Assembly: GCF_030268685.1 (NCBI RefSeq) | Contig: NZ_BSRQ01000018.1 | Span: forward strand, 1 to 64,000 | Origin: Microtetraspora sp. NBRC 13810 | Lineage (GTDB): Bacteria; Actinomycetota; Actinomycetes; Streptosporangiales; Streptosporangiaceae | Direction of reading: 5' to 3' | DNA length: 64,000 nucleotides | Part shown: one piece after another, positions 50,182 through 60,968 of the stretch | How the letters are laid out: every line of letters starts with the position of its first letter | How positions within the stretch are numbered: position 1 is the stretch's first letter | Made by a program: the position numbers and the translations under genes | The notes under the pieces: generated by a model | Database searches by the model: none | What the model was told of the DNA's origin: nothing | What the model saw: the letters and a program-made list of their open reading frames with translations, nothing else

Positions 50182-50484
50182 TCAGTGCTCGTCCCAGTGG
50201 TCGTCGTGCATCGCGTGGCGGTGGCCGTCGTGCACGAAGTCCACGTGGTCCCCGTGCGGCACGGCGACGTGCCCGCAGCCCATCTCGTGCCGGTGCTCGT
50301 GCCGCTGGTGGACGGTGTGCCCGCCGCCGCCGCACTCGTCGGCGTGGTCGCCGTGTGCTCGGTGCAGGCATCCGTCGTGGACGTAGTCGACGTGGCCCTG
50401 GTGCGGCACGGCCACGTGCCCGCAGCCCTCGCCGTGCCGGTGCTCGTGGCCGGTGTGCGGGTGGTGTTCCGTGGACGCCGTCAT
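50182..50484 (-). CDS. His-rich duplicated metal-binding protein
   Basis: A 100-aa protein made of two 39-residue repeats (13-51 and 62-100) joined by a Gly-rich linker. Each has the pattern HEHRH, CGHVAVPH, GDHVD or QGHVD, VHDG and further His-His spacing. About 30 residues are histidine. It has no signal peptide or membrane helix. Related sequences in actinobacteria are often called zinc-transporter-like, which this soluble peptide is not. It probably buffers Zn, Ni or Co. The ends of the two repeats differ most (CLHRAHGDHADEC against HRHAMHDDHWDEH). Confidence 0.8.
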   Translation of the reverse strand: MTASTEHHPHTGHEHRHGEGCGHVAVPHQGHVDYVHDGCLHRAHGDHADECGGGGHTVHQRHEHRHEMGCGHVAVPHGDHVDFVHDGHRHAMHDDHWDEH

Positions 50485-52257: not shown

Positions 52258-52869
52258 ATGCCCACGATCCGCCCGTACGACCTCGCAGACCTGCCCGGCA
52301 TGTACCGGGTGTGCCTCCAGACCGGCGACTCGGGCCGGGACGCCACCCGCCTCTACCGCGACCCGGACCTGCTCGCGCACATCTACGCCGGGCCGTACCC
52401 GGTCGCCGACCCCGGTCTCACCTGGGTCGCCCGCGACGACCAGGGGGTGCTCGGGTACATCGTCGCCACCGCGGACACGCCGGCGTTCGAGCGGTGGCTG
52501 GAGGACGCCTGGTGGCCGGGCCTGCGCGAACGGTATCCGGCGGAGCTCGCCGCCGACCCGGGCGACGGCACGGAGGACTGGCGGCGCGTCGCTCACATCC
52601 ACCGGCCCCGGCGCTTCGCCGACCCGCTGCACGAGCCGTACCCCGCGCACCTGCACATCGACATCCTGCCCCGGGGCCAGGGCGCGGGGCTGGGCCGCAG
52701 GCTCGTCGAGACGCTGACCGGGGCCCTGCGCGCCCGCGGTGTGCCGGGCCTGCACCTGGGTGTCGGCAGCGGCAACCCGCGGGCCCTCGCCTTCTACCTG
52801 GCGGTGGGCTTCCACGAGGAGCGCCGGGGCGAGCGGGGCAGCACCATGACCATGGACCTGCGGACCTGA
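52258..52869 (+). CDS. GNAT-family N-acetyltransferase
   Basis: GNAT acetyltransferase, 203 aa. Acetyl-CoA binding is shown by LHIDILPRGQGAGLGRRLVETL (pattern R/Q-G-x-G-x-G) with the following helix, and GVPGLHLGVGSGNPRALAFYLAVGFHEERRG is motif B. An extended segment (about 60-120) between motifs resembles the human OGA-C-terminal-like (NagJ/MGEA5 acetyltransferase-like) group that sits next to glycosidase genes. The acceptor is unknown. AAAGG about seven bases before the ATG is the ribosome site. Confidence 0.85.
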   Translation: MPTIRPYDLADLPGMYRVCLQTGDSGRDATRLYRDPDLLAHIYAGPYPVADPGLTWVARDDQGVLGYIVATADTPAFERWLEDAWWPGLRERYPAELAADPGDGTEDWRRVAHIHRPRRFADPLHEPYPAHLHIDILPRGQGAGLGRRLVETLTGALRARGVPGLHLGVGSGNPRALAFYLAVGFHEERRGERGSTMTMDLRT

Positions 52870-52873
52870 CCGC

Positions 52874-53359
52874 TCACGCCTCGCCGGTCGCCTGCCCGGG
52901 GATCCGCTCCCGCCAGGCGACCTGGAGCTCGGCGATCCGCTGGAAGGCGCGCTTGAAGCCGGCGTACACGTCCTCGCCCAGCTCCTCCGCGTGCCGCCGC
53001 TCGATCCCGGCCACGATGGCGTCCGAGGTGGACATCATGTCCAGGCCCAGCGCGGTGGGCACCACCAACTTGGCCCGCCGGTCCTGCGGGTCGGGCTCCC
53101 GCCGCACGTAGCCGAGCGCGGTCAGCTCGTCGACGAGCGTGCTGATGACCTGCTTGTGCTGGCCGGACTGCTGCGACAGCTCGGTGGCCCGGCTGCCCTC
53201 GGCGTCGAGGTACACCATCACCGCGCCGTGCCTGGGACGCAGTCCCGGATGGCCGCGCCGGGCCAGCGTCTCGAACAGTTCCTTCTGCAGGTTGAACAGC
53301 ACCCGGCCGGTCAGCATCCCCAGATCGGGATCCGCCTGCTTGCCTACGCTGCGCCGCAT
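52874..53359 (-). CDS. MarR-family regulator
   Basis: MarR winged-helix regulator, 161 aa. VLFNLQKELFETLARRGHPGLRPRHGAVMVYLDAEGSRATELSQQSGQHKQVISTLVDELTALGYVRREPDPQDRRAKLVVPTALG covers the dimer helix, recognition helix and wing (DPQDRRAK). I start at ATG 53359, with GGAGAGG six bases upstream; the upstream frame to 53461 is Arg/Pro rich and unlikely. It is convergent with GNAT (4-bp gap). Its target is not obvious. Confidence 0.9.
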   Translation of the reverse strand: MRRSVGKQADPDLGMLTGRVLFNLQKELFETLARRGHPGLRPRHGAVMVYLDAEGSRATELSQQSGQHKQVISTLVDELTALGYVRREPDPQDRRAKLVVPTALGLDMMSTSDAIVAGIERRHAEELGEDVYAGFKRAFQRIAELQVAWRERIPGQATGEA

Positions 53360-53576
53360 CGGCCGCCTCTCCACATTCGCCTGGCGTGAAGGACGGGCCG
53401 GCTGCCGTGCCGGCCCGCGTTCTTCTCCATAAGAACGGCGTAGATCACCCACACGGTTCACCTCGGACCGGGCGACTTCGAGAAACTGCCGCGGTCTCGC
53501 GTCACGAGCCGCGTACCCCCGCCGGCGGACCGCCGCGGAAAACGCCCTTCCGGTCTTCCCGGTCGGCTTCTCCCGG

Positions 53577-54842
53577 TCAGCGTGCGATGGCCACCATGAG
53601 CCGGCCGGCGGTCGGCCTCTTCGACGGGTCCTTGTCCAGGCAGGCGGCCACGGGGTCGCGGAGAGGCGGCGGGAGGTCGCGCAGGTCGGGCTGGTGGTGG
53701 AGCACGGACTCGTAGATCTGGAACTGCGTGCCGCCGCCGAAGGCCAGGCGGCCGGTGGCGCCGAAGTACATGGACGATGCCCAGCTGAAGATGTCGGACG
53801 GGGGACCGACGGACCGGCCGGAAACCTGTTCCGGTGACATGTACGCCGGGGTTCCCCTGACGCCGGCGGAGGCCGTGCTCACCTGGTCCAGGGCCCTGGC
53901 GATGCCGAAGTCGATGACCCGGGGACCATCCGGCCCGAGCAGCACGTTGGCGGGTTTGAAATCGCGGTGCACGATCCCGGCGGAGTGGATGGCGTTGAGC
54001 GCGGCCGAGGTCGCGATGGCCAGCCGGATCAGGTGGCCGACATCGAGCGGGCCCTCATGGCGCACCTGCCACTCCAAGGAGTTTCCCTGGACGAACTCGC
54101 TGACGATGTAGGCGACGTCGCCCTCGATGCCCGTGTCGAGGATCCGGGCCGTCGAGAACTGGGGCACGCGCTGAGCGGATGCCACTTCGCGCATTAAGTA
54201 GGCGAGTTCCTCCGATCTGCCGCGAAACCGTTCATGCAGCACCTTGACCGCGACCTGCTGCCCATCCGGCGCTCTTCCGAGATGAACCGCCCCCTGGCCC
54301 CCCTCGCCGATCTTCTGCAGCAGAATGTACGGCCCCAGCCTGCCCGGACCGGTGAAACCGGAGGACGGGGCGGCTCCCCAGGGATCCCAGGTCGGCGACG
54401 GACGTCCGGGCGGTGTACTCGGCGGGTCAGTCGGTCGCGGGCGGTCCGTCGGTGAATCCGGGACCTGCGCCTTCGGCTGGAAAACCTGTTTACGGATGAG
54501 AAACGCGTGCAGCGTCCCTCCGCCGCACATGCCGCCGAACCAGAGCCACATGGCGACCGTGTTCCGCAGTTCGTCCTGCGGCGGATAATCGACGCCTGGA
54601 GCGAGGACCATGACGAAGACGAAGTACCCCAGATAACCACTCGCGGCCAGCCACAGTTTCTGTTGTGCCAACCGTGCGGCGGCGGAGCCGATGACGAACA
54701 CCGTGCCGATACCGAGGGTGAGCAGCGGAAGGAGCGCCCAGACGATACTGAGCGTCTGCCGGGTGGACGACAGCCGAATCGGGGGATGGCTCGGGGGCAC
54801 GATGGAAATCATACGGAGGAGCCGCGAAGGTACGTTCTGCAT
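53577..54842 (-). CDS. Ser/Thr protein kinase with N-terminal membrane domain
   Basis: A 421-aa kinase with unusual topology. Three hydrophobic helices come first (about 31-53, 63-81 and 95-115), then a Pro/Ser/Thr linker (125-165), then a complete Hanks-type kinase domain. It has the glycine loop IGEGGQGAVHLG (178-189), Lys200, HRDFKPAN (292-299), DFG 311-313 and SPEQ in the activation segment. Typical actinobacterial PknB-like kinases have the kinase first and a membrane helix later. There is no extracellular sensor domain. ATG 54842 is a guess; ATG 54812 is possible. It is divergent from a second kinase gene 28 bp away. Confidence 0.88.
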   Translation of the reverse strand: MQNVPSRLLRMISIVPPSHPPIRLSSTRQTLSIVWALLPLLTLGIGTVFVIGSAAARLAQQKLWLAASGYLGYFVFVMVLAPGVDYPPQDELRNTVAMWLWFGGMCGGGTLHAFLIRKQVFQPKAQVPDSPTDRPRPTDPPSTPPGRPSPTWDPWGAAPSSGFTGPGRLGPYILLQKIGEGGQGAVHLGRAPDGQQVAVKVLHERFRGRSEELAYLMREVASAQRVPQFSTARILDTGIEGDVAYIVSEFVQGNSLEWQVRHEGPLDVGHLIRLAIATSAALNAIHSAGIVHRDFKPANVLLGPDGPRVIDFGIARALDQVSTASAGVRGTPAYMSPEQVSGRSVGPPSDIFSWASSMYFGATGRLAFGGGTQFQIYESVLHHQPDLRDLPPPLRDPVAACLDKDPSKRPTAGRLMVAIAR

Positions 54843-54870
54843 CAGGAATTCAGGCTTGCCGGAGTGAACA

Positions 54871-55839
54871 GTGCCGAACAAACGGATGATCATTGACGGG
54901 CGTTACGAACTCGATCCGGATTCTCGGCTCAAGGGCGGTATGGGGGAGGTTTGGTTCGGCCGTGACAAACGTCTGGACCGGCCGATCGCGATGAAGTTCG
55001 TTCGCGTCGATCAACTGCCCGGTGGCGAGCCGGACCCCGAGCTGGTCCGGCGCTTCGTGCGCGAGTCGCGGATCACCGCACGGCTGGAACATCCCGGAGT
55101 GCCGGCGGTCTACGACTGCGGGACCGAGGGGAAGGATCTCTATCTGGTCATGCAGCTCGTCAACGGCCGCTCGATCGCGGACATCCTGGCCGAATCGGGC
55201 ACGGTGCCCGTGCCCTGGGCCGCGGCGATCGCCGCCCAGGTGTGCTCGGTGCTGGCGGTCGCGCACGCCGGCTCGCTGGTGCACCGGGACCTGAAACCGG
55301 GCAACCTCATGCTCTGCCGGGACGGCTCGGTCAAGGTGCTGGACTTCGGTGTCGCCGCAGCGTTGTCCGCCACCAGGCTGACCAGGAGCGGCGTCGTCGT
55401 CGGCACACCGGAGTACATGGCGCCCGAGCAGGCCCGGCACGGAACGACGAGCCCGCGGAGCGACCTCTATTCGCTCGGCGTCGTCCTGGACGAGATGCTC
55501 ACCGGACGTGACCGGTCCGCCGGCCCGACGGCGCCGGCGTCGGCACGCGACCCCTTCCGCCGTGAACCACCCCTCCCGGATCCGGCCTCCGGTCAGGTGC
55601 CCGAAGCGCTGGAACGCCTCCTCGCCCGGCTGCTGGCGGAGAAGCCCGGCGACAGGCCGCCCTCGGCGGAAGCCGTGTACCGGGTCCTGGTTCCGTTCTG
55701 TGAGGATCTGCCGCCGTTCGCCGGCTACGTGGACGCGGAGGAACTGCACCCCGTCCGTATGTACGCGACAGTGCTCGGCCGCGTCCGGTCACCACGGCCC
55801 CGCTACGAATCGGTCCCCTCGGTGACCGACCCGCCCTGA
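54871..55839 (+). CDS. Soluble Ser/Thr protein kinase
   Basis: A 322-aa Hanks-type kinase without membrane segment. RYELDPDSRLKGGMGEVWFGRDK is a slightly unusual glycine loop, Lys42 is in IAMKFV, HRDLKPGN lies at 138-145, DFG at 158-160, and GTPEYMAPEQ in the activation segment. All catalytic residues are present. The last 40 residues (VDAEELHPVRMYATVLGRV) are extra. GGAG stands six bases before the GTG start. It is divergent from the membrane kinase. Its 3' end overlaps that of the convergent NYN-FHA gene by 37 bp, so the three genes form a compact block. Confidence 0.9.
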   Translation: MPNKRMIIDGRYELDPDSRLKGGMGEVWFGRDKRLDRPIAMKFVRVDQLPGGEPDPELVRRFVRESRITARLEHPGVPAVYDCGTEGKDLYLVMQLVNGRSIADILAESGTVPVPWAAAIAAQVCSVLAVAHAGSLVHRDLKPGNLMLCRDGSVKVLDFGVAAALSATRLTRSGVVVGTPEYMAPEQARHGTTSPRSDLYSLGVVLDEMLTGRDRSAGPTAPASARDPFRREPPLPDPASGQVPEALERLLARLLAEKPGDRPPSAEAVYRVLVPFCEDLPPFAGYVDAEELHPVRMYATVLGRVRSPRPRYESVPSVTDPP

Positions 55840-56933
55840 TCATCCAGCTCGGGAAGGACGAGGCCGGAGGAGAACCGGTGGCCGGACTGACGGACGAGCA
55901 CCGCGCCGCCGAGCAGAAGCTCGTCCTTGTCCCCGACGACGACCTCCTCCCCGGAGGTCAGCCGGCGCTCCGCGGGCATGCCGAAGCGCTTGATCGCCGT
56001 ACCGTTGCGCGAGGCCAGATCGACGGCGGTGAGCCGTGGCATCCGCGCCGTCCCGGACATCTGCAACTTCACATGCTGGCGGCTCACCCGGGCGCGGGCT
56101 CGTGGGAACGGCAGGCCGCGTGCGTCGAGATTGATGCCGTAGGGAAGGCGCCCGCGGCCGATGACGAGCGCGAGGTTCTCACTGATCGGGAAACGGATGA
56201 TCTCGCCGCCGGCCCGGTCCGCGACGACGATCACCCTGGTGACCCCGCGCGGCCCGATGTCCTCCAGCGGCCGACGGCAGGACGGGCACAGCACGGCGCC
56301 GTCGCCGCCGAGCCGCGGCCAGGTCAGCAGCCGATCCGGCGAGGACATCGCCTCGATGCACGAAGGCGTGGTGCAACGCCACGCGGAGCGCAGAACCCGT
56401 CGGTGCGCGGCGTCACGCACATTGATCCTGTACGCGAAGCTCAGCTCCTTGGCCTCCTCCTGCCGGGACTTGTCCTGCTCCGGCACCTCGCGGATGCCGC
56501 TCGGCGCGAGGCGGAGTCCCGCTGGGTCGCCCGCTGTGTCGTCCGCTGTGTCGTACGTCCAGCTCAGGAAGCGGTCGGCGGCGCCGGCGATCCACGGGTG
56601 GTCGCGCCGCTGGTCGACGAACCGGTCGGAGCTGATCACATGCAGGCCCCGGTCCCGGGCGAGGGCGAGGAGAACCGGGTCGGCGTAGGGGACCAGACGC
56701 AGCTCCCCGGAGCGGACCGACTCGTGCAACCGGTGCCGATCACCCGGCGGAAGCGTGTGCTGGAGCGAACGATCGCCGATCAGCGTCAACGGCGCCGCCG
56801 TGCCGTACGTGCGGACCCAGCACTCGCGCACCGCCTCCAGCCGGGACAGCAGCGGCACCTGCCGGCCGAGCGGAGGTATCCGCGGTGACCAGCAGACGTT
56901 CGACACGTCGACGACGGCACCCGCTGGTCTCAC
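55803..56933 (-). CDS. NYN/PIN-type RNase domain - zinc ribbon - FHA domain protein
   Basis: A 376-aa protein with three recognisable parts. Residues 5-118 resemble the Zc3h12a/NYN branch of PIN-fold RNases: AVVDVSNVCWS (Asp9, Asn12), then VPYADPVLLALARDRGLHVISSDRFVDQRRDHPW (Asp85, Asp103). Residues 187-219 hold two cysteine pairs (CTTPSC and CPSC) like a zinc ribbon. Residues 253-350 are an FHA domain with GR at 259-260, SRQH at 284-287 and NG at 310-311, all needed for phosphothreonine binding. It is inferred to be an RNase controlled by or tethered to phosphorylated kinases next door. The GTG start is at 56933. Confidence 0.75.
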   Translation of the reverse strand: MRPAGAVVDVSNVCWSPRIPPLGRQVPLLSRLEAVRECWVRTYGTAAPLTLIGDRSLQHTLPPGDRHRLHESVRSGELRLVPYADPVLLALARDRGLHVISSDRFVDQRRDHPWIAGAADRFLSWTYDTADDTAGDPAGLRLAPSGIREVPEQDKSRQEEAKELSFAYRINVRDAAHRRVLRSAWRCTTPSCIEAMSSPDRLLTWPRLGGDGAVLCPSCRRPLEDIGPRGVTRVIVVADRAGGEIIRFPISENLALVIGRGRLPYGINLDARGLPFPRARARVSRQHVKLQMSGTARMPRLTAVDLASRNGTAIKRFGMPAERRLTSGEEVVVGDKDELLLGGAVLVRQSGHRFSSGLVLPELDDQGGSVTEGTDS

Positions 56934-57193
56934 CGGGAGGACACCTCTTCCGTATGTGCCCGCGCCGGCTCGAACGTCATGCGGAACGCCGGGCGGGGGC
57001 GCTGCTCAGGGGCGCTTCGTCCTTGCCGCCACTTTCAACGTACAGGTGGGAGGGGGGCTTGCGGCAAGACCCCGGTGATCCCGCAGAATCGGGGGCCGTG
57101 AGCCGGCCGGGCCCGGTACGGATGCCGATCCCGGCTCATGTCCACCAGCCGGCCCTTCGGCCGTGTTCCATGCCGTCACCAGGGGGATTTCCT

Positions 57194-58444
57194 ATGCGCG
57201 TGCTGCTGTCCACCATCGGGTCGCGTGGCGACGTCCAGCCGTTGGTGGCACTCGCCTTGGAGTTGCGGAAGCTCTGCGAGGTCCGGATGTGTGTGCCGCC
57301 CGACTTCCGCGAATGGATCGAAGGGCTCGGCATCCCCGTCGTGCCCATCGGCCCCGAACTGCGCGCGACCGCCGCCGGCCGCGCGACCGCGTCAGCACCG
57401 TCGGCCGCGTCAGCACCGTCGGCCTCGGCGGCTCCGGCGGCTCCGCCTTCGCCCGAGCAGCGGCGGCAGATGGCGGAGGCCACGATCGCCGCCCAGTTCC
57501 CCGCGATCACGTCGGCGGCCGAGGGCTGTGACGTCATCGTGGCCGCCACGGCCCTGCAGATGGCCGCCCGCTCGGTGGCGGAGACGATGGGGATCCCCTA
57601 CGTCTTCGCCGCCTACTGCCCCGCGGTGCTGCCGTCGCCGTACCACGCCCCGCCGCCCGGACCGGGGCAGCCGCCCGCGACCGCCGGCAACCGCGAGCTG
57701 TGGGCGCGGGACGCCGAGCGCTTCAACGAGCTGTTCGGCGCCGCGCTCGACTCCCATCGGGCGTCGATCGGCCTGGCGCCGGTCGGCGACGTGCGAAGCC
57801 ACGTCTTCACCGACCGGCCCTGGCTGGCCGCCGACCCGGTGCTGGGGCCGTGGCCCGAGGACGGCGAGCGGACCGTGGTCCAGACGGGCGCCTGGATCCT
57901 GCGTGACGAGCGTCCGCTGTCTCCTGAGCTGGAGGCGTTCCTCGCGGCCGGCGAGCCACCCGTCTACTTCGGCTTCGGCAGCATGCGCGCACCTGGGGAC
58001 CTCGCCCGGGTGATGGTCGGATCGGCCCGTGCGCTCGGCCGCCGGGCGATCCTGTCCCGCGGCTGGGCGGGGCTGGCACCGGTGGACGGCGAACCCGACT
58101 GCCTGTCCGTCGGCGAGGTCAACCAGCAGGCGCTGTTCGGCCGGGTCGCCGCCGTCGTCCACCACGGCGGGGCGGGCACCACGACCGCGGCCGCGCGGGC
58201 CGGTGCGCCCCAGGTCGTCATCCCCCAGCTCTACGACCAGCACTACTGGGCGGGGCGCGTCCAGGACCTCGGGATCGGAGTCGCGCACGCGCCCGGCGCC
58301 CCGGCCGCCGGCTCGCTGACGAGCGCCCTCAAGCAGGCCCTCCGGCCGGACGTGGCGGCCCGCGCCCGGACCGTCGCCGCCCGGGTGCGGATCGACGGCG
58401 CCAGAACCGCCGCGCAGCGCCTGATGACCCTGGCCCAGGGATAG
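57194..58444 (+). CDS. GT1-family glycosyltransferase
   Basis: UDP- or dTDP-sugar-dependent glycosyltransferase of the MGT/UGT family (GT1), 416 aa. MRVLLSTIGSRGDVQPLVALALEL is the N-terminal Rossmann start. The C-terminal nucleotide-sugar region has VYFGFGSM, VNQQALFGRVAAVVHHGGAGTTTAAARAGAPQVVIPQLYDQHYWAGRV. It resembles the glycosyltransferases that decorate macrolides, sterols or peptide antibiotics. An Ala/Ser/Pro-rich stretch at about 62-92 contains an 18-bp duplicated unit at the DNA level. AGGGGG stands before ATG 57194. The acceptor is unknown. Confidence 0.9.
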   Translation: MRVLLSTIGSRGDVQPLVALALELRKLCEVRMCVPPDFREWIEGLGIPVVPIGPELRATAAGRATASAPSAASAPSASAAPAAPPSPEQRRQMAEATIAAQFPAITSAAEGCDVIVAATALQMAARSVAETMGIPYVFAAYCPAVLPSPYHAPPPGPGQPPATAGNRELWARDAERFNELFGAALDSHRASIGLAPVGDVRSHVFTDRPWLAADPVLGPWPEDGERTVVQTGAWILRDERPLSPELEAFLAAGEPPVYFGFGSMRAPGDLARVMVGSARALGRRAILSRGWAGLAPVDGEPDCLSVGEVNQQALFGRVAAVVHHGGAGTTTAAARAGAPQVVIPQLYDQHYWAGRVQDLGIGVAHAPGAPAAGSLTSALKQALRPDVAARARTVAARVRIDGARTAAQRLMTLAQG

Positions 58445-58533
58445 ACACCGGTCGGTGATCAGCCGGTGTGGCCGGCGGCGGAACGAGGGCAGGGTGTCCA
58501 GAGGACCAGTTGCATCGAATCTGCCCTGCGGGC

Positions 58534-58565
58534 TTGACCCTGACGCTGCGTCAACCCTCCATGCT
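58534..58565 (+). promoter_or_regulatory. MerR-type promoter for the ABC exporter
   Basis: TTGACC (58534-58539) and CATGCT (58560-58565) are separated by 20 bp, the long spacer typical of MerR-controlled promoters. Within the spacer lies the perfect inverted repeat TGACG-CTG-CGTCA (58541-58553). The start codon at 58573 is seven bases after the -10, so the mRNA should be leaderless. Confidence 0.7.
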
Positions 58566-58572
58566 GACAGGC

Positions 58573-59385
58573 ATGAGCATCCCGCCTGATCAGGTCCGGG
58601 GGTCTGCGATCCACGTGCAGGGCCTGGAGAAGTCGTACAAGGAGTTACAGGTGCTGCGCGGCGTGGACTTCGACGTGGCGCGGGGCGGCATCTTCGCCCT
58701 GCTCGGCTCCAACGGGGCGGGCAAGTCCACAGTCGTGAAGATCCTGTCCACGCTGCTCAAGGCCGACGCGGGGACTGCCCGAGTCAACGGTTTCGATGTC
58801 GCCACGCAACCGGCGGAGGTGCGGGAGTCCATCAGCCTCACCGGGCAGTTCGCCGCTGTGGACGAGATCCTCAGCGGGCGGGAGAACCTCGTGCTGGTCG
58901 CCCGGTTGCGGCACCTCAAGGAACCGGGCAAGATCGCGGATGACCTGCTGAGACGCTTCTCGCTGGCCGAGGCGGGCGCCCGGAGGGTGGCGACGTATTC
59001 GGGTGGCATGCGCCGCCGCCTGGACATCGCGATGAGCCTGATCGGTGATCCGCCGGTCATCTTCCTCGACGAGCCGACGACCGGGCTCGACCCGGAGGCG
59101 CGCATCGAGGTGTGGCAGGCCGTCAGGGAACTCGCCGGGCAGGGGACGACGGTGCTGCTCACCACCCAGTATCTGGACGAGGCCGAACAACTCGCCGACC
59201 GGATCGCGATCCTGCACGAGGGCCGGATCATCGTCAACGGCACCCTCACCGAACTCAGGCAACTGCTCCCGCCCGCCAAGGTCGAATACGTCGAGAAGCA
59301 GCCGACCCTGGAGGACGTCTTCCTCGCCCTCGTCGGCGACAACGGCAAGAACGGCCATGACCGCAACGTCGGCGCGGACGCGTAA
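58573..59385 (+). CDS. ABC-2 exporter ATP-binding protein (DrrA-like)
   Basis: ATPase of a drug/antibiotic-type ABC-2 exporter, 270 aa. Walker A is GSNGAGKST, the Q-loop is in SLTGQFAAVDEILSGRENL, the signature is YSGGMRRRLDIAMSL, and Walker B is VIFLDEPTTGLDPEAR. The C-terminal EKQPTLEDVFLALVGD is the DrrA-type regulatory end. I start at ATG 58573, seven bases after the predicted -10; no ribosome site is present. It precedes the permease gene by 9 bp and a MerR regulator, forming an inducible efflux module. Confidence 0.93.
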   Translation: MSIPPDQVRGSAIHVQGLEKSYKELQVLRGVDFDVARGGIFALLGSNGAGKSTVVKILSTLLKADAGTARVNGFDVATQPAEVRESISLTGQFAAVDEILSGRENLVLVARLRHLKEPGKIADDLLRRFSLAEAGARRVATYSGGMRRRLDIAMSLIGDPPVIFLDEPTTGLDPEARIEVWQAVRELAGQGTTVLLTTQYLDEAEQLADRIAILHEGRIIVNGTLTELRQLLPPAKVEYVEKQPTLEDVFLALVGDNGKNGHDRNVGADA

Positions 59386-59394
59386 GGGACCACG

Positions 59395-60156
59395 ATGAAC
59401 AAGCATTTCTTCGGCGACACCGCCGTCCTGCTGGGACGTTCCCTGCGTCACATCACGCGCAGCCTGGACACCATCATCACGACGGCGATCACGCCGATCG
59501 CCATGCTGTTGTTGTTCGTCTACGTGTTCGGCGGCGCGATCAACACGGGGTCGGATTCGTATGTGAACTACCTGCTGCCCGGCATTCTGCTCATCACGAT
59601 CGCCTCGGGCATCGCCTACACCACCTTGCGGCTCTTCCTGGATATGAAGAGCGGCATCTTCGAGCGTTTCCAGTCCATGCCGATCGCGCGGTCGTCGGTG
59701 CTGTGGGCGCACGTGCTGACCTCGCTGGCCGCCAATGTGATCTCGCTGGTGGTCGTCGTGCTCGTCGCCCTCCTCATGGGCTTCCGCTCGGAGGCGGGAG
59801 TGCTCGCCTGGCTCGCGGTCGCCGGCATCCTGATCCTCTTCACCCTGGCGTTGACCTGGATCGCCGTCATCCCCGGCCTCACCGCGAAGAGCGTGGACGG
59901 CGCGAGCGCGTACTCCTACCCGCTCATCTTCCTGCCGTTCCTCAGCTCGGCCTTCGTACCCACCGCCACCATGCCCGGCCCGGTACGCGCCTTCGCCGAG
60001 AACCAGCCGGTGACCTCCATCGTCAACACGATCCGCGACCTGTTCACCCGGCAGCCGGTCGGCACCGACATCTGGATCGCCCTCGCCTGGTGCGTCGGCA
60101 TCCTCGTCGTCGCCTACATCTTCGCCGATATCTCCTACCGTCGCAGGATCTCCTGA
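59395..60156 (+). CDS. ABC-2 type permease (DrrB-like)
   Basis: Integral membrane permease, 253 aa, of the daunorubicin-resistance DrrB type. Six hydrophobic segments are visible: TAITPIAMLLLFVYVFGG, YLLPGILLITIASGIAYTTL, SLAANVISLVVVVLVALLMG, LAWLAVAGILILFTLALTWIAV, SYPLIFLPFLSSAFVP and WIALAWCVGILVVAYIFADI. The MKSGIFERFQSMPIARSSVL loop and the ENQPVTSIVNTIRDL stretch are diagnostic. It forms the exporter with the preceding ATPase. The substrate is probably a lipophilic drug or metabolite. Confidence 0.93.
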   Translation: MNKHFFGDTAVLLGRSLRHITRSLDTIITTAITPIAMLLLFVYVFGGAINTGSDSYVNYLLPGILLITIASGIAYTTLRLFLDMKSGIFERFQSMPIARSSVLWAHVLTSLAANVISLVVVVLVALLMGFRSEAGVLAWLAVAGILILFTLALTWIAVIPGLTAKSVDGASAYSYPLIFLPFLSSAFVPTATMPGPVRAFAENQPVTSIVNTIRDLFTRQPVGTDIWIALAWCVGILVVAYIFADISYRRRIS

Positions 60157-60200
60157 GCCGGTGTCGACCGGTCCGGGCGAGTTGAGGGCATGATCAGAGC

Positions 60201-60968
60201 ATGCTGACGATCGGTCAACTGGCGGCGTACGCCGGCGTCACGGTGCGGGCGGTGCGGCACTATCACCAGATCGGACTCCTGCCCGAGCCGGAGCGGGACG
60301 CTTCGGGGTACCGGCGGTATGGCGCGAAGGCAGTCGTGTCCCTCATCAAGATCCGCACCCTCGCCAACGCCGGCGTGCCGCTGTCCCAGATCGGTCAGAT
60401 GCTCGACGCCGACGCATCGACCTTCGCCGAAGCGGTCCAGAGGATCGACGGCGACCTGCGCGACGAGATCGAACGGCTTGAGATCAGCCGCAAGCAGATC
60501 GCGCAGCTCGCTGCCGGGGACAGCCTGGCGCTCCAGCCGGAGGTGGTCTCCTATCTCGATCGGCTCCGGGAGATCGGGGTGTCAGAGCGGTTGGTGGAGG
60601 GTGAGCGGGACGGGTGGATCCTGGTCTCGGCTCGCTGGCCCGATCAGATCTGCGAGATCATGCCCGCGAAGTTCGCGCAGCTCGATGACCCGGAATTCGT
60701 TCGGCTCTATCGGGTCCTGTCGGAAATGTCCGAAAGCGACGCAGACGACGACCCGCGTCTGGACGAAGTCGCCGACCTCATGGCCGCCGGCCTGGCCGAG
60801 CACGCATACGCCTCCGGCGAGGTGGCGCACGACGGTCTGCCGTTCGACCTCCTGGACGCGCTTGCCCTGGAGTACGACCCGCGGGCGCAGCGGCTTCTGG
60901 ACCGGATACGCGAGCGTGGCTGGGCCAGCTGGACCCGGGCGGAGCGGCTGACGGAGCCACCCGGCTGA
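60201..60968 (+). CDS. MerR-family regulator
   Basis: MerR-type activator, 255 aa. LTIGQLAAYAGVTVRAVRHYHQIGLLPEPERDASGYRRYGAKAVVSLIKIRTLANAGVPLSQIGQML is the winged helix plus dimer helix. The long C-terminal domain (about 85-255) resembles the drug-sensing domains of TipAL-like or BmrR-like regulators but has no clear cysteine or GyrI motif. It most likely activates the exporter promoter at 58534-58565. The GC-rich gap from the permease is 44 bp, so it may also be co-transcribed. No ribosome site is strong. Confidence 0.92.
   Translation: MLTIGQLAAYAGVTVRAVRHYHQIGLLPEPERDASGYRRYGAKAVVSLIKIRTLANAGVPLSQIGQMLDADASTFAEAVQRIDGDLRDEIERLEISRKQIAQLAAGDSLALQPEVVSYLDRLREIGVSERLVEGERDGWILVSARWPDQICEIMPAKFAQLDDPEFVRLYRVLSEMSESDADDDPRLDEVADLMAAGLAEHAYASGEVAHDGLPFDLLDALALEYDPRAQRLLDRIRERGWASWTRAERLTEPPG

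Follow-up and report, generated by a model that had tools for sequence, protein, structure and literature searches.

The window, a stretch of 64,000 nucleotides from Microtetraspora sp. NBRC 13810, encodes a protein that combines a predicted NYN-type nuclease domain with a Cys cluster and an FHA domain, and its gene is packed against the genes of two Ser/Thr kinases (Table 1). The predicted link between such proteins and Ser/Thr kinases is borne out across the family: with a kinase profile built from kinases of these same loci and refined in iterations over loci plus background, the adjacent gene is a kinase in 37 of 63 family members (21 of 44 in the first set and 16 of 19 further proteins from Streptomyces), compared with 2 of 352 background genes from 20 regions of 20 kb in 20 non-Streptomyces genomes. 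One weak background match (L122_8), judged spurious, had been dropped from the first set (45 to 44), and three proteins of L171 and L172, repeats of L011 and L013, from the second (22 to 19). The kinase adjacency of the relatives suggests that RNA cutting may be switched by phosphorylation. In our judgement the case is evenly balanced for a metal-dependent endoribonuclease that carries its own reader of Ser/Thr phosphorylation, the FHA domain, through which its activity, partner or location is controlled. Ser/Thr kinases are numerous in actinobacteria, most of them without targets known to us, and a predicted RNase with a phosphothreonine reader beside kinases would tie kinase signalling directly to RNA decay. 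The family offers kinase-substrate pairs testable in Streptomyces. No description of the NYN-FHA architecture came up in the searches made of open-licence PMC papers.

Gene arrangement and predicted domains

Three packed genes had been claimed for this locus, and all three open reading frames were found (Table 1) and called as coding by a codon-usage gene finder trained on the same DNA. The gene finder placed the start of the NYN-FHA gene later, at 56858; the alignment of relatives favours the GTG at 56933. The 37-bp tail-to-tail overlap of the kinase 2 and NYN-FHA genes is present as predicted (55803-55839). The kinase 2 gene is head to head with the kinase 1 gene, the start of which is uncertain (54893, 54842 or 54812), with no deciding ribosome-binding site seen by eye. 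The predicted distance of 28 bp between the two kinase starts holds only for the inner ATG at 54842, whereas with the first ATG at 54893 the divergent reading frames overlap by 23 bp. Both kinases match Pfam PF00069 (141.2 and 133.9 bits, cut-off 31.7) and keep HRDxKPxN and DFG, and the hydrophobic N-terminal segment of kinase 1 starts near residue 48.

Table 1. Features of the kinase and NYN-FHA locus (positions in the window)
Feature	Position	Strand	Description
Ser/Thr kinase, hydrophobic (likely membrane) N-terminal segment (kinase 1)	53577..54893	(-)	438 aa; catalytic motifs intact
Soluble Hanks-type Ser/Thr kinase (kinase 2)	54871..55839	(+)	322 aa; catalytic motifs intact
NYN-Cys cluster-FHA protein gene	55803..56933	(-)	376 aa, GTG start; ORF, Pfam, alignment, AF2
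NYN/Zc3h12a-type nuclease domain	56553..56933	(-)	~residues 1-127; D9, N12, D54, D85, D103 near-invariant; alignments and fold match
Cys cluster C187-x4-C192 ... C216-x2-C219	56277..56375	(-)	possible zinc ribbon; putative metal binding
FHA domain	55869..56243	(-)	residues 231-355; G259-R260, S284-R285-x-H287, N310-G311; Pfam and VIA-align
C-terminal tail	55806..55862	(-)	residues 358-376; predicted disordered (pLDDT < 50)

The AF2 model of the protein, made with eight sequences, has a pLDDT of 83.8. Comparison of model residues 1-146 with the PDB in VIA-align gave matches to the ZC3H12A and ZC3H12C nucleases at Z 12.2-13.0 (ZC3H12C, 7ndk: Z 13.0, rmsd 2.7, 131 aligned residues), and ZC3H12C was also recovered from the PDB (E 1.8e-4), its catalytic motifs in register, by a profile of 19 NYN domains. 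The Pfam RNase_Zc3h12a (PF11977) score of the window protein, 15.1 bits, is under the cut-off of 23, which is passed by the relative at L059 (23.2 bits) and by an HSP70-NYN protein of L067 (35.7 bits). Residues D9, N12, D54, D85 and D103 do not vary in either the 20-row or the 19-row alignment and are kept in 32 or 33 of 34 family members. The model and the PDB comparisons thus agree on the predicted PIN/NYN fold of the N terminus, and neither a different fold nor loss of the acidic cluster in homologues was seen. Fold and acidic cluster are common to the Zc3h12a/Regnase-1-type NYN RNases (ZC3H12A-C, KHNYN and the PRORP nuclease domain). In contrast to these, the window protein is bacterial and carries a Cys cluster and an FHA domain on the same chain, with no CCCH finger seen.

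For the C-terminal part, the AF2 model and PDB comparison likewise agree on an FHA fold. The Pfam FHA profile (PF00498) scores 24.8 bits (cut-off 20.7), and VIA-align superimposes the domain on 3gqs with Z 14.3 and rmsd 2.1 over 100 aligned residues; the region of about residues 229-355 matches GarA (7rj3) at Z 12.5 and OdhI (4qcj) at Z 12.6. FHA domains contact phosphothreonine through G-R, S-R-x-H and N-G. All three motifs are found in the window protein, and the predicted phosphothreonine-binding residues are near-invariant in 34 family members. In the 20-row alignment G259, R260, R285 and H287 are invariant, and N-G is replaced in the four aligned copies from the KVP operons described below. 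A chance match of the NYN and FHA domains was considered and is ruled out by the AF2 fold, the PDB comparison and the conservation. Between the domains, C187, C192 and C216 are invariant in 20 rows and C219 is His in many relatives, a pattern of Cys/His conservation that makes zinc binding possible; the fold-search matches listed are FHA and NYN chains, which barely cover the Cys cluster and linker (residues 147-228). The residues named in the original prediction (D9, N12, D85, D103, both Cys pairs, GR, SRxH and NG) are all present and mostly conserved, with variation at the second Cys of pair two and at N-G.

Tail threonines, partner genes and a possible phospho-switch

In the family, 32 of 43 tails have, within their last 12 residues, a Thr followed by a hydrophobic residue no more than 3 residues later, compared with 15.0 expected from shuffling (maximum 26 in 1000), in a test chosen after seeing the data and made on hand-corrected tails (43 of 53 left after near-duplicates were removed). 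Nine other residues showed no excess in the same shuffling test. A criterion set in advance picked out 12 of 14 new tails (6.6 expected) and 30 of 38 tails already seen (18.5 expected), and was helped by related tails and by a conserved PTEL-like tail start. The tail finder assigned no tail to 6 of the 44 proteins already seen, the window protein included, or to 5 of 19 new proteins (L176, L177, two tail-less copies and the truncated L189), and it counted two tail-less copies (L055_7 and L059_3) as tailed. The window tail carries T371, which is aligned in 8 of 8 rows of the close-relative alignment and has its codon (55821-55823) within the kinase 2 overlap, and T374; it is outside the family pattern because no hydrophobic residue follows either of them. 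The recurrent tail Thr is a hint, from sequence, of a GarA-like switch, into which the window's own tail fits poorly.

Nine loci, here called KVP loci, encode a kinase, an NYN-FHA protein, a vWA protein and a PP2C. Eight of the nine carry a second NYN-FHA gene, one copy being tailed and the other tail-less. The KVP kinases have altered catalytic motifs (HAD or HGD; DYD, DYA or DLS; two gave no match in the motif scan) and their activity is therefore less sure, whereas HRDxKPxN and DFG are intact in each of the 28 adjacent kinases from other loci. The TerY-P triad consists of the same vWA, PP2C and Ser/Thr kinase components, which the KVP loci encode side by side. Unlike in TerY-P, an NYN-FHA gene is part of the KVP cluster, and the window locus has kinases only, with no vWA or PP2C gene detected within six genes. 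No Pfam match to a C-terminal zinc ribbon or OB fold fused to the kinase was obtained in one KVP kinase or in the window kinases.

The closest parallels for a switch are GarA and OdhI with the kinases PknG and PknB, which likewise comprise an actinobacterial FHA protein with a flexible Thr-bearing end and a Ser/Thr kinase link. Their phosphosite is reported in the N-terminal region, whereas in the window family it would be in the C-terminal tail and the cargo is a predicted RNase; to our knowledge, GarA and OdhI carry no enzyme domain. In the ArnA-ArnB module of Sulfolobus, the zinc finger-FHA protein ArnA is reported to bind a vWA protein phosphorylated at its C-terminus, and kinases are involved. 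The ArnA FHA domain matches the window model at Z 12.5 and rmsd 2.9 (VIA-align), and zinc finger and FHA domain are a further likeness, but ArnA is described with these two parts only and acts on archaellum expression. The vWA-MoxR ternary conflict systems include PIN and FHA domains within vWA components, alongside a MoxR ATPase (Kaur et al. 2020, PMC7159879), and combine a PIN-like RNase and FHA in one polypeptide as the window protein does. In contrast, the NYN-FHA family is without vWA fusion and its linked genes are kinases; Pfam found no MoxR ATPase or vWA component among the nine proteins of 52258-60968.

In the most likely course of events, a neighbouring kinase would autophosphorylate and dock the FHA domain, a domain reported as a kinase docking site in OdhI (PMC8546545). 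The docked kinase would then phosphorylate the NYN-FHA enzyme, probably on its C-terminal tail, and the phospho-tail would bind an FHA domain, either its own or that of a second NYN-FHA molecule, in the manner of GarA/OdhI. Such binding may open or close the presumed nuclease or its RNA-binding surface. We put forward more tentatively, and consider somewhat less probable, that the family is an undescribed actinobacterial class of phospho-switched endoribonucleases, in which FHA domains would take up phosphorylated tails, in cis or across the two copies of a pair, and the nuclease would be assembled or locked; in the KVP loci PP2C would reset it.

It is less probable still that the FHA domain serves solely to hold a constitutively active RNase at an autophosphorylated kinase, for example kinase 1, or at another phosphoprotein, in which case phosphorylation would set location or substrate access and the tail would be no switch. 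The hydrophobic segment of kinase 1, at least one such segment in 16 of 37 adjacent kinases (by a crude hydropathy scan), the tail-less copies in the KVP loci and the poor fit of the window's own tail all favour such an anchor. For PknG with OdhI/GarA, FHA docking on an autophosphorylated kinase extension is reported. Tethering alone, however, leaves the recurrent C-terminal Thr in otherwise dissimilar tails unexplained.

Distribution and flanking genes

The family has a scattered distribution in the actinomycetes. Matches covering both domains, from residue 60 or earlier to residue 290 or later, were found in at least 21 of 341 genomes from the window's family and in at least 20 of 392 Streptomyces genomes. 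These counts are minima, since no more than five first-look candidates were scored in each genome, and one match among the 20 from Streptomyces (G728) contains an internal stop. This scatter would suit an anti-phage or abortive-infection module in which the kinases sense infection and release an RNase toxin, a role that is compatible with the phospho-switch mechanism and that we regard as unlikely. TerY-P-like kinase-PP2C-vWA modules are reported to be active against phages (PMC11090510). PADLOC matches at E 1e-10 were obtained for at most 14 of 100 flanking genes, compared with at most 7 of 99 background genes, both being small upper bounds that include generic families, with no clear enrichment and a weak excess possible. 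The flanks were 100 of 199 eligible genes, kinase, vWA, PP2C and NYN-FHA genes having been removed beforehand, and the background was without one kinase gene; the flank matches include one Cas11e, one type IV restriction enzyme and one ZorD-like protein. Against a defence role, no homologues were found in the plasmid and phage collections, the vWA and PP2C proteins of a KVP locus matched no PADLOC model at E 0.01, and the six window neighbours scanned with Pfam are regulators, a glycosyltransferase, an ABC transporter pair and an acetyltransferase. The partners in KVP and GTVK (operon-type) loci gave kinase matches and one weak LeoBC hit in PADLOC. The window kinases match its PD-T4-6 profiles, which are generic, since an unrelated background kinase matches them too.

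Conservation of the gene neighbourhood

The original prediction also held that the block is inherited as a unit, which was not borne out, as no other locus in the context tables has the kinase-kinase-NYN-FHA arrangement. A conserved three-gene block was rejected on this absence together with the kinases' best non-self matches, none of which exceeds 55% identity to either kinase among the matches listed in 14 genomes. What is conserved beyond the strain is the linkage to kinases, not the exact trio. In one of 13 other genomes (G974), kinase 2 has its best listed match in the kinase encoded next to the NYN-FHA gene (42% identity, E 1.1e-52), with a paralogue at 39% identity (E 1.4e-51) close behind. 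The window's clade comprises 16 proteins, of which three have an adjacent kinase, seven belong to an operon that also encodes a vWA protein and a kinase, and six have neither, some of these last loci being cut by contig ends. The tree is a quick one that leaves out L189_1, flags L011_2 and L118_4 as long branches and gives the KVP group, not starred, a support of 93.

That the two kinase genes are chance neighbours of the NYN-FHA gene in this strain, the protein being regulated by other kinases or not at all, would accord with the 65 kinase matches among those listed for the window genome (22 to 78 per genome across 14 genomes), with the missing trio, with the different operon of the sister protein in the tree (L170) and with an orientation, convergent with a 37-bp overlap, unlike the co-directional kinases of most relatives, but is very unlikely because of the kinase adjacency of the family relative to background, and L016 of the same clade also has convergent kinases. 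At an assumed 8,000 genes, 65 kinases would place a kinase beside about 1-2% of genes. Among the seven other FHA genes of the window genome, none is adjacent to a kinase and five lie within five genes of one.

Fold and conserved residues of the NYN-FHA protein

The AlphaFold2 model of the window protein, built from an input alignment of 8 sequences, has a pLDDT of 83.8 and a pTM of 0.65, with pLDDT below 50 for residues 358–376 only. Foldseek matched the model to FHA domains and ZC3H12 nucleases. Residues 1–146 superpose on ZC3H12C (7ndk; VIA-align Z 13.0, rmsd 2.7, 131 residues) and about residues 229–355 on FHA domains such as 3gqs (Z 14.3, rmsd 2.1, 100 residues) and those of GarA, OdhI, and ArnA, in agreement with the original prediction of a NYN-like N terminus and an FHA fold. 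When a profile of 19 NYN domains was run against the PDB, it also matched ZC3H12C (E 1.8e-4), and its D-x-S-N, A-D, and D-x-F motifs lined up with their ZC3H12C counterparts. The Pfam score of the window protein exceeds the cut-off for the FHA domain and lies under it for the Zc3h12a-like NYN domain.

Near-invariant in 34 family members including the window protein are D9, N12, D54, D85, and D103 in the NYN domain, together with C187, C192, C216, G259-R260, and S284-R285-x-H287. In a 20-row alignment D9, N12, R31, D54, D85, and D103 are invariant, together with the three cysteines, G259, R260, R285, and H287. Because these key residues are conserved, the NYN enzyme is probably active and the FHA domain probably binds phosphothreonine. 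An HSP70 fusion protein that ends in a NYN domain likewise retains the catalytic set.

The conserved cluster encoding this fusion was found in six fetched loci (L065, L066, L067, L069, L070, and L071), and similar C-terminal NYN matches occur in L077 and L119. It also encodes two proteins, of 539 and 205 amino acids in L067, for which no Pfam match was obtained in that locus.

Coordinates of genes and clusters in the window and in fetched loci (L numbers)
Feature	Location	Strand	Detail
Kinase 1, probable membrane kinase gene	window 53577-54893	-	438 aa
Kinase 2, soluble kinase gene	window 54871-55839	+	322 aa
NYN-FHA gene	window 55803-56933	-	376 aa
His-rich ORF	window 50182-50484	-	100 aa
NYN-FHA family member, NYN domain and two FHA-like matches	L118:8669-10543	-	624 aa; KVP locus
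Kinase, NYN-FHA, vWA, and PP2C (KVP) cluster	L059:1476-10796
Cluster with HSP70 fused to C-terminal Zc3h12a-type NYN domain	L067:5577-9891		Pfam 35.7 bits, above cut-off (L067 scanned)
Operon downstream of NYN-FHA gene	L049:10598-17188

Linkage to kinases and exchange of partners

The coordinates predicted for the three window genes were confirmed, as was the 37-bp tail-to-tail overlap of kinase 2 with the NYN-FHA gene; the 28 bp proposed between the kinase starts depends on the true start of kinase 1. A gene finder based on codon usage and trained on the DNA analyzed here called all three genes coding, and the two genes beside the NYN-FHA gene's block end encode protein kinases by Pfam. The His-rich ORF, likewise called coding, repeats HGDHVD-like segments and is possibly a metal binder.

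A kinase gene directly adjoins 21 of 44 family members and 16 of 19 fetched later, compared with 2 of the 352 genes in the 20 regions taken as background; within five genes the counts are 33/44, 19/19, and 10/352. A stricter control was provided by the seven other FHA matches of the window's own genome, five of which have a kinase within five genes and none an adjacent one. FHA genes thus generally live near kinases, and adjacency is the stronger signal. Outside the KVP loci there are 28 adjacent kinases, every one of which keeps HRDxKPxN and DFG; in the nine KVP loci these motifs are altered or were missed by the motif scan.

In a tree of 62 proteins, made by a quick method with SH-aLRT support only, nine KVP proteins group together (support 93, two long branches). 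A second group of 37 comprises 24 proteins adjoining a kinase, 7 KVP-locus partners, and 6 of neither kind. The clade that includes the window protein has 16 members: a vWA gene and a kinase gene lie downstream in 7, an adjacent kinase is present in 3, and 6 have neither arrangement within the DNA examined. L170, the sister of the window protein, is of the vWA-kinase type. Since neighborhoods differ across clades, and even in the sister, the NYN-FHA genes are linked to kinases in general, and partners have been exchanged. The suggestion that the block is inherited together was not borne out, given this sister and the lack, among the matches listed from 14 genomes, of any non-self match to the window kinases above 55% identity. 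In one of these genomes (G974), the best match of kinase 2 adjoins that genome's NYN-FHA gene (42% identity).

The L049-type operon, also present in L012, L013, L015, L047, L048, and L052, encodes a YbdK carboxylate-amine ligase-like protein (weak, 34 bits against a cut-off of 176.4), a Cys-rich 429-residue protein, a vWA protein, and a kinase.

The best reading of the computed fold, conservation, and kinase linkage is a metal-dependent RNase controlled by kinase phosphorylation through its FHA domain; that it cleaves RNA, that it is phosphorylated, and which way phosphorylation switches it are what we infer. The kinase would phosphorylate, and the FHA domain would read the phosphate, setting RNase activity or assembly. 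The kinase may dock through the FHA domain, in the way reported for OdhI (PMC8546545). The closest described systems found are TerY-P triads, the ArnA-ArnB module, GarA/OdhI, and the PIN+FHA effectors of vWA-MoxR systems, which, in the portions of their descriptions available, differ in having no NYN-Cys-FHA protein beside kinases. Novelty is not proven, because the literature searched comprised open-licence PMC papers only.

Distribution and the question of defense

Of the 341 genomes in the window's family, at least 34 have a match (at least 21 spanning both domains, read from match coordinates); among 392 Streptomyces genomes, at least 29 have one (at least 20 spanning both). A class-wide draw of 394 genomes gave some match in at least 342, but beyond the best dozen genomes most of the listed matches cover just the FHA part. 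The relatives that carry names come from Streptomyces, Kitasatospora, and one Trebonia MAG; the plasmid and phage records searched gave no match. PADLOC matches account for no more than 14 of 100 flanking genes, with one each of Cas11e, a type IV restriction enzyme, and a ZorD-like protein, compared with no more than 7 of 99 genes in the background, and the commonest Pfam families in the flanks are ordinary chromosomal ones. These results neither establish nor refute an anti-phage or abortive-infection role for the locus, which has a rather low probability.

C-terminal tails and paired copies

Most members outside the KVP group carry a short tail with a threonine near the C terminus; the prediction of disorder covers the tail of the window protein alone. 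A threonine followed within three positions by a hydrophobic residue occurs in the last 12 residues of 32 of 43 non-redundant tails (15.0 when shuffled), a criterion picked after data inspection, and nine other residues in place of threonine gave no excess. With the criterion set beforehand, 12 of 14 new tails conformed against 6.6 expected, these tails being partly related and a PTEL-like start contributing. In the window tail T371 is aligned in 8 of 8 rows, yet the following hydrophobic residue is absent.

In the KVP loci (L011, L055, L058, L062, L063, L118, L179, and L185, besides L059) the operonic copy has no Thr-bearing tail. Eight of the nine have a second, tailed copy; in the ninth, L118, both FHA-like matches fall in one protein. 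L055, L058, L059, L062, and L063 have in common a protein of at most about 1250 residues, with no Pfam match in the L059 copy scanned. Two flanking proteins have an FHA Pfam match, and in L053, L054, L176, L177, and L187 an extra gene partly matching the NYN-FHA profile lies two to three genes from the NYN-FHA gene on the opposite strand, encoding 140–156 residues in L053 and L054.
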